Assembly: GCF_014203735.1 (NCBI RefSeq)
Contig: NZ_JACHJQ010000005.1
Coordinates: 248,001 to 312,000, forward strand
DNA from: Actinophytocola algeriensis
Lineage (GTDB): Bacteria > Actinomycetota > Actinomycetes > Mycobacteriales > Pseudonocardiaceae
Length of the DNA stretch: 64,000 nucleotides
Direction of reading: 5' to 3'
The notes under the pieces were generated by a model. That model saw only the letters and a list, made by a program, of their open reading frames with translations. It did not search any database and was not told the DNA's origin. Shown piece by piece: positions 47,404 through 48,420 of the stretch. Position numbers and translations under genes: made by a program. The number at the start of each line of letters is the position of its first letter. Positions within the stretch are counted from its first letter, which is position 1.

Positions 47404-47492
47404 TCCTGCCCGCCCGCGCGCCACTCCTCGGCTCGTCCGGGGCCGGCGCGCGCGTGCTCGCGGGCCCGGCAGAAAATCTGTGGTGGCTGGAG

Positions 47493-47522
47493 TAGACATT
47501 GTCTGATCGGTGTGGGTAGCAT
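47493..47522 (+). promoter_or_regulatory. Housekeeping-type promoter before the structured region
   Basis: TAGACA (47493-47498, 5 of 6 to TTGACA), 18-nt spacer, TAGCAT (47517-47522, fits the actinobacterial TANNNT -10). A small palindrome AGACATTGTCT covers the -35. Transcription would start near 47529. Confidence 0.45.
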
Positions 47523-47528
47523 TGTCGT

Positions 47529-48070
47529 CGTAGGCAATGAGACAACGTCGATCCGGCGCGGGAGATGACGGAACTACCCGCGAAGTGAGACAAGGCCGGG
47601 ACCGGTGGTCGAAAGAGTGCTAGAGGTAGTACCCGGTCCCGAGGATGTACCCAGCAGGACGTGGGCGGAGTAGTTGCGCTCACGCGGTAGGTGAGTGAGT
47701 AGAACGGCTGGTCGGGGTCGGAACCCGTCACGAGAAGTGGTTCCGACCCCGACTGCCAGCGAGGTGTCATGCGTGCTGGGGCCGGTCTGAGTAAGGGGTT
47801 CCGGCAGGTGACACCCGCAGTGGTACGAGATGAGTGGATGACGCACGAGAAAGGGGATGGGTCGCTTCATTGGATCGGCCGCCCTGGCCACGTTCGGCCG
47901 GGCGGGTACCTCAGTCCCATCAGATTGGTAGGTGGTGCTCGGTTAGGTACAAGCGATCCCCGCGATGCCTGCCCATCGGGCGCACGTGGGTACCACAACC
48001 CGGTCTCACGATCGGGACATGATGAAAACCCAAACCCAGGGGCCCCGGTGCTGCAGCACCGGGGCCCCCT
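47529..48070 (+). ncRNA. Candidate long structured non-coding RNA or leader
   Basis: About 540 nt with no credible ORF and lower GC than its surroundings. Stems found by eye: 47597-47605 with 47633-47641 (9 bp) enclosing 47618-47623/47628-47633; 47679-47683 with 47691-47695; 47711-47725 with 47739-47753 (15 bp, perfect); 47763-47769 with 47809-47815 enclosing 47781-47785/47801-47805; 47879-47889 with 47896-47905 (10 bp, one bulge). It ends in a 30-bp perfect palindrome. It does not show the conserved sequences of RNase P RNA, tmRNA or SRP RNA. It may be a free RNA or the 5' leader of the MerR-like gene that starts 12 nt later. Confidence 0.5.
48039..48068 (+). terminator. Perfect 30-bp palindromic terminator-like hairpin
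   Basis: GGGGCCCCGGTGCTG (48039-48053) is followed directly by its full reverse complement (48054-48068). An A-rich stretch lies just upstream. It marks the probable 3' end of the structured region. Confidence 0.65.
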
Positions 48071-48081
48071 GTGACGGTGAG

Positions 48082-48420
48082 GTGACTTTGATCCCTGATT
48101 CCCGCGACTCGGCCGCCCCGGGCGCGGCCGACAAGTTCGACGACGAGCACTACCCCGCCTACACGATGGGCCGGGCCGCGGAGATGCTCGACACCACGGC
48201 AGGTTTCCTGCGCAGCCTCGACGAAGCGAAACTGATCGAGCCGCAACGCTCCTCCGGCGGTCACCGCCGCTACTCCCGCCACCAGCTGCGCATCGCCGCC
48301 CGGGTGCGCGAACTCGTCGACCAGGGCACCGGCCTGGACGCCGCGTGCCGCATCGTCAACCTCGAAGACCAGCTCCACGAGGCGCAACGGCTCAACGCCG
48401 AACTGCGCCAATCCGACTGA
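48082..48420 (+). CDS. MerR-like helix-turn-helix regulator
   Basis: Protein of 112 residues. The N-terminal winged helix reads YTMGRAAEMLDTTAGFLRSL, then GGHRRYSRHQLRIAARVREL, as in MerR proteins. The C-terminal dimerisation helix (LEDQLHEAQRLNAELRQ) is short and there is no effector domain or cysteine pair. The start is GTG at 48082 (GGTGAG upstream) or TTG at 48088. It lies 12 nt after a strong hairpin that closes the structured region, so expression may depend on read-through. Related short MerR proteins are widespread in actinobacteria. Confidence 0.78.
   Translation: MTLIPDSRDSAAPGAADKFDDEHYPAYTMGRAAEMLDTTAGFLRSLDEAKLIEPQRSSGGHRRYSRHQLRIAARVRELVDQGTGLDAACRIVNLEDQLHEAQRLNAELRQSD

Follow-up and report, generated by a model that had tools for sequence, protein, structure and literature searches.

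Organization of the locus

The window analysed in this work is a 64,000-nt stretch of the Actinophytocola algeriensis genome (family Pseudonocardiaceae, class Actinomycetes, phylum Actinomycetota). Between an RDD gene and a gene for a MerR-like protein, it contains an element built in a defined order: a near-unique promoter box, a 5' hairpin, tandem hairpins with GCAGUA-rich linkers, a core of ~155 nt, a strong GC hairpin and the gene for a small HspR-like MerR protein. The number of tandem hairpins in the middle varies between copies. The features of the window copy are as follows (supporting analysis in parentheses):

47474-47500, + strand: conserved box AAATCTGTG-N9-GTAGACATT, an imperfect inverted repeat overlapping the -35 hexamer (box-site searches)
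47493-47522, + strand: promoter TAGACA, 18 bp, TAGCAT (sequence; -35 and -10 conserved in a 26-copy alignment)
47557-47582, + strand: 5' hairpin CGCGGG-AGAUGACGGAACUA-CCCGCG (19-row alignment A5)
47597-47641, + strand: first tandem hairpin of the variable middle (sequence; minimum free energy folding)
47711-47753, + strand: second tandem hairpin, 15 perfect bp with a 13-nt loop (sequence)
47763-47815, + strand: third tandem hairpin, the conserved module C-Y-G-G-R-R-C-C-G-A-U ... G-G-U-U-C-C (31-row alignment A4)
47865-48017, + strand: core domain, comprising the outer helix GGAUCG/CGAUCC, a hairpin, a GUACC/GGUUA helix, the invariant GGUGGU and two 3' hairpins (alignments A1 and A2; covariance model R1)
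48039-48068, + strand: terminal hairpin, a 30-bp GC palindrome (sequence; A1 pairs 258-297 and 261-294 change from GC to AU)
48082-48420, + strand, stop codon included: MerR-like protein of 112 aa (Pfam MerR_1, E 1e-11)

The stems, palindrome and promoter reported in the first-pass annotation of this region were all found in place when the sequence was re-read: the perfect 15-bp stem with its 13-nt loop is exact, the 30-bp palindrome is perfect, the two sets of nested helices (47597-47641 and 47763-47815) are both inverted-repeat hairpins, and the hexamers TAGACA (47493-47498) and TAGCAT (47517-47522) form a predicted promoter by sequence consensus. The edges had been set at 47493 and 48082. 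The right one coincides with the GTG start codon of the MerR gene, whereas the left one had to be moved, as the element starts ~20 bp upstream with the conserved box. The predicted transcript would span ~540 nt, from the promoter to just past the palindrome. The terminal hairpin lies 13 bases from the MerR start codon, directly ahead of the MerR ribosome-binding site, and is a probable terminator with no clear U tract.

Box-to-terminator lengths, estimated for the 149 of 153 units in which the box was found, range from ~220 to 880 with a median of 480; these values are rough, and the two shortest (173 and 174) stop short of the terminal hairpin. Two motifs are strongly overrepresented in the middle part, GCAGTAC (99 observed vs 2.6 expected) and CCGATCA (65 vs 0.6). 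Three Kutzneria copies (L053, L136 and L139) contain about three repeats of both the 5' hairpin and the module, and by a pattern of our own at least one module-like loop is present in 51/149 units.

Coding capacity and folding

The earlier claim that the region lacks a credible open reading frame is borne out by the stop pattern and the length spread of 57 aligned 3' domains: taking the three frames in turn, the first 190 nt are stop-free in 21, 13 and 22 of them, and the domain lengths modulo 3 are distributed 24/19/14. A possible peptide within the 5' hairpin (AUGACG...) was rejected, because several homologues do not retain the AUG (GAGAGGACG, GAGATTACG) and a one-base shift changes the frame. 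A link with the upstream RDD gene was likewise rejected, as this gene is not conserved beside any of 25 other copies.

The + strand folds better than all shuffled sequences (MFE z = -5.4; 0/100 shuffles as good), but the - strand also gives a strong value (z = -4.0), so single-sequence folding is not decisive. That the region stands out from chance follows rather from its conservation (20/100 genomes, own included) and its covariation.

Covariation of the predicted helices

In the alignment of the 57 diverse 3' domains (A1), 23 of the 36 predicted pairs have at least one compensatory change. Alignment A2, which comprises 52 of these domains, five with gaps or insertions being excluded, was assessed against a structure of our own. 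In A2, 94.9% of the cells are paired and 12 of the 26 pairs show double changes (65 cells); all five measures lie above 500/500 shuffles and above every slid version of the structure, the slid structures pairing only 27-40%. For the most part, the outer helix GGAUCG/CGAUCC shows conservation instead of covariation, and it is 90.6% paired. Upstream of the core, 6 of the 14 pairs of the module (A4, 31 rows) are compensatory, one pair being UA in 13 rows, CG in 11 and UG in 5. In the 5' hairpin (A5, 19 rows), where only the inner five pairs are meaningful, one pair is GC in 14 rows and AU in 5, and CG changes to UA in 1/19. The GGUGRU of the core is nearly invariant in the alignments; conservation across the class does not extend to the 5' A of AGGUGGU.

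The class-wide alignment A7 (45 rows) is biased toward the same structure, its members having been found with the covariance model. It is 91.5% paired with a covariation score above all 500 shuffles; however, the number of pairs changed on both sides (4/22) is equalled by 237/500 shuffles, and the structure slid by -2 scores higher on covariation (0.120 vs 0.096). Covariation thus supports the structure strongly inside the family, and counts as no more than partial evidence for the class as a whole. With its compensatory changes, the region looks like a gene for a structured RNA that is kept among relatives; conservation and covariation in relatives, which the first-pass annotation had named as its test, both hold.

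Distribution among genomes and plasmids

Homologues were found by DNA search in 20/100 genomes, the own genome included, and 25 copies with flanks were taken from 19 of the 20, the own genome being left out. For wider searches, covariance model R1 was built from the core domain; the filters of these searches are stricter and miss weak members, and the counts include the own genome. R1 matches 84/249 genomes of the family, in 21/46 genera, and 83/394 genomes of the class; in the phylum it matches 9/296 genomes, all nine inside the class. A positive genome holds one to six copies, at different places. Six RNA copies and five MerR copies are present in one genome (G027; L056, L057, L307 and others), where two near-identical orphan RNAs occur together with one MerR gene that has the box but no RNA.

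Among 72,556 plasmid records, 62 match a Streptomyces copy and 59 of these are from Streptomyces, which is probably also the genus most often positive in the class search; of the 30 matches listed, 28 have no annotated gene beneath them and the other two are in records without annotation. In the four plasmid records inspected, a MerR gene comes next, followed once by a cold-shock gene. At a Streptomyces plasmid locus (L294:2846-5246), ~2.4 kb before MerR are free of listed genes, with the RNA core at the right end. No plasmid was matched with the window copy as query, and the phage search gave no match.

The MerR partner and the genomic context

The MerR-like protein of the window belongs to the MerR superfamily (Pfam MerR_1, 45.2 bits vs a gathering threshold of 21.6), and only MerR families match it in Pfam at E<=0.001, so that no ToxN-type endonuclease stands beside the RNA. 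The best NCBIfam model is HspR (NF047375), whose score of 52.1 bits is below the cut-off of 105 and does not make the protein an HspR. In 143/153 unique copies a co-oriented MerR gene follows within 450 nt, a figure inflated by 80 loci that had been fetched via MerR. In sets chosen otherwise, a MerR-like gene is directly downstream of 23/25 relatives' copies fetched by DNA search and downstream at 30/30 best loci of the class search, which were chosen by the RNA, and at 16/20 further regions picked for genomes with several copies.

Homologues of the protein at E<=1e-10 are present in 52/100 genomes. The closer ones carry the RNA, and most of those below ~65% identity show neither box nor core. 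For the best 80 of 288 MerR relatives the core is upstream in 80/80; being selected by MerR, this set cannot measure linkage. The organisms found in this search include Actinophytocola, Kutzneria, Amycolatopsis, Lentzea, Saccharothrix, Kibdelosporangium and Pseudonocardia; one record each is labelled Rhodococcus, Nocardia and Streptomyces. At one locus (L099, position 6385, - strand), reading by eye located a second MerR paralogue (59% identity) just downstream of a small heat-shock-protein-like gene.

Flanking genes, called with our own gene caller, show no strand bias (same strand for 70/143 upstream and 61/144 downstream), which argues that the RNA-MerR pair is the unit. The first downstream genes were scanned for 133 of 144 cases and fall into the families CSD (10), HATPase_c_2 (6), SpoIIE (4), STAS (4) and others such as methyltransferases. 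These families hint at stress physiology, and at no more than that. A cold-shock protein, suggested as a fixed partner by an initial cluster of 24 loci, was rejected in this role, since csp genes occur in 10/108 RNA loci and in 10/133 first downstream genes. A box at the csp promoter was also rejected: a box-like site is present in 1/10 loci (L225 only). The csp leaders of several Streptomyces loci (L316, L320, L324, L328, L329 and L247, L251, L254, L292) contain GCGATCACC ~55-58 nt before the start codon, a sequence that resembles the 16S rRNA 3' end.

The promoter box

The own genome has a single perfect copy of the box, and the next best site has three mismatches. The pattern AAATCT-N12-GTAGACAT, with at most one mismatch, found 45 sites in 16 genomes, and the reversed control pattern found none. 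By our own tally, 37 of the 45 sites are at model-positive RNA copies and six are ahead of core-less MerR genes (L089, L302, L303, L304 twice, L305); of the remaining two, one has neither RNA nor MerR (L301) and the other resembles chance (L306). The box is practically private to the RNA-MerR unit, which fits a local regulator. It is likely to be the operator of the MerR protein.

Tandem, orphan and core-less units

Ten of the 153 unique units have no MerR gene within 450 nt, and the RNA is thus not confined to positions upstream of, and co-oriented with, a regulated gene as a leader would be. They are the first units of four tandem pairs (L241-L244), both units of L245, and single units at L041, L057, L250 and L258. 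At L241, two complete units that both comprise a box, the RNA and a GC hairpin stand in tandem before one MerR gene; at L245, two such complete units have no MerR at all. Further copies without MerR, additional to these ten, are those of L257 and L307. The scores at L257 and L258 are weak and the two may be decaying copies; the L245 units and other orphans could be decaying duplicates.

The opposite case also occurs. At L089 and L305 the box immediately precedes MerR. Box, hairpin and MerR are kept at L302-L304 with the core missing, and L049 lacks the core while keeping the box, 5' parts, terminal hairpin and MerR; the core is therefore dispensable at these four loci. A diverged subtype upstream of MerR (L099, L124, L126, L090) retains the box and GC hairpin, has no R1 core and contains different hairpins, e.g. 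GCGCCATCANCGATGAATCGGCGC; at the first three of these loci, a cold-shock gene follows ~250 nt after MerR.

Comparison with known RNAs and regulatory systems

The Rfam search proposed in the first-pass annotation returned no match for the whole window at the gathering threshold of Rfam 15; down to E<=10 nothing credible appeared, the best match being mir-583 on the palindrome (23.2 bits vs 80). Twelve homologous loci gave no match on the RNA, the sole match being a group II intron (RF00029) at L226:2226-2303 on the - strand, and ARAGORN found no tRNA or tmRNA genes in the window. Models of OLE, ROOL and GOLLD are included in Rfam; none matched the window or the 12 loci at the gathering threshold.

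OLE, ROOL and GOLLD are likewise several hundred nucleotides long, with many stems, their own promoter and an unknown partner. The present RNA differs from them in having no Rfam match, in being sized by tandem modules, in its coupling to MerR and in having no phage match. HspR and other autorepressed MerR-family operons resemble the unit in that HspR is the best NCBIfam model (52 bits) and the likely operator overlies the -35 region, but the score is below the cut-off of 105, the box is unlike the HAIR sequence, and what is encoded next to MerR is an RNA instead of a chaperone. The protein-sequestering RNAs CsrB and RsmZ share many repeated hairpins, short linker motifs and a variable repeat number, whereas the present RNA has other motifs (GCAGUA, CCGAUCA) and one conserved core.

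In the literature searched, including text from PMC2864571, PMC6637917, PMC11678152 and PMC3765725, no description of the RNA was recognised; it may still stand unnamed in a published sRNA table. With no relative in the library and no description found, what is new is the RNA family; large structured RNAs of unknown function are a known kind.

Proposed function and alternative explanations

The conserved box, covarying helices, lack of coding capacity, variable modules, terminal hairpin, usual linkage to MerR and occasional tandem or orphan copies were computed directly. On balance, we consider it moderately probable that the element is an independent gene whose product is a modular structured non-coding RNA (~540 nt here), and not merely a leader, under the putative control of MerR. 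The dedicated MerR protein would bind the box over the -35 region and repress (or activate) the RNA promoter, and leaky read-through past the terminal hairpin would produce MerR, resulting in autoregulation. Less surely, the RNA might act in trans under stress as a platform that binds a protein or ribonucleoprotein; the core would then be essential, and the tandem hairpins and GCAGUA linkers would be binding sites that can be repeated. The repeatable modules favour such a platform; with module-like loops in only 51/149 units, it does not fit the short Streptomyces forms, which consist of the core only.

The two options of the first-pass annotation, a large ornate RNA and a long leader with a regulatory role, agree with the data. 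The latter would make the RNA the 5' UTR of merR, sensing a ligand, temperature or a protein and switching either read-through at the terminal hairpin or the accessibility of the ribosome-binding site. The presence of MerR within 450 nt in 143/153 unique copies, at 23/25 DNA-fetched copies and at 30/30 top class loci is what a leader would predict, as is a terminal hairpin that ends roughly twelve bases ahead of the start codon. We nevertheless regard a leader as rather unlikely and favour the separate RNA gene, because tandem units each carry their own box and terminator, orphans lack MerR, and some MerR genes have the box but no core.

An antisense-type regulator, in which GGUGRUY of the core would pair with GAUCACC of the 16S rRNA 3' tail or of some cold-shock mRNA leaders, seems improbable to us. 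The near invariance of GGUGRU is in its favour, as is GATCACC in the csp leader of 6/10 RNA-MerR-csp loci; but among 24 csp leaders of four genomes only six have GATCACC, several of them far from any RNA copy, and of the eight Pseudonocardiaceae leaders in this set one has it, at another position. Moreover, the 5' A of AGGUGGU varies in the class, and a 7-mer match is cheap. We give very little credence to a DNA element or mobile-element relic: the one to six copies per genome at different places and the copies on plasmids would suit it, whereas compensatory base changes and a promoter box would not, and no transposase is among the 25 commonest of 109 families in the first downstream genes. 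Exceedingly improbable is a type III toxin-antitoxin-like unit. The order of promoter, repeated RNA, terminator and protein gene is that of ToxIN, but here the protein is a DNA-binding MerR regulator rather than a nuclease, and either part occurs and survives alone.

Extending the stand-alone RNA gene further, we tentatively suggest, as a possibility rather than an expectation, an undescribed modular RNA machine of large-genome actinomycetes, in which a fixed core with add-on hairpins would be expressed from a dedicated box read by a private MerR protein, and tandem and orphan copies, on plasmids as well as chromosomes, would be controlled in trans. If the element is indeed an RNA gene, roughly one in five genomes sampled from the class (83/394) contain, in up to six copies each, a structured RNA gene missed by the RNA-family library. 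Together with its MerR regulator, the RNA would form a defined and testable pair in organisms investigated for their antibiotics, with a possible connection to cold shock and to the control of stress by partner switching.
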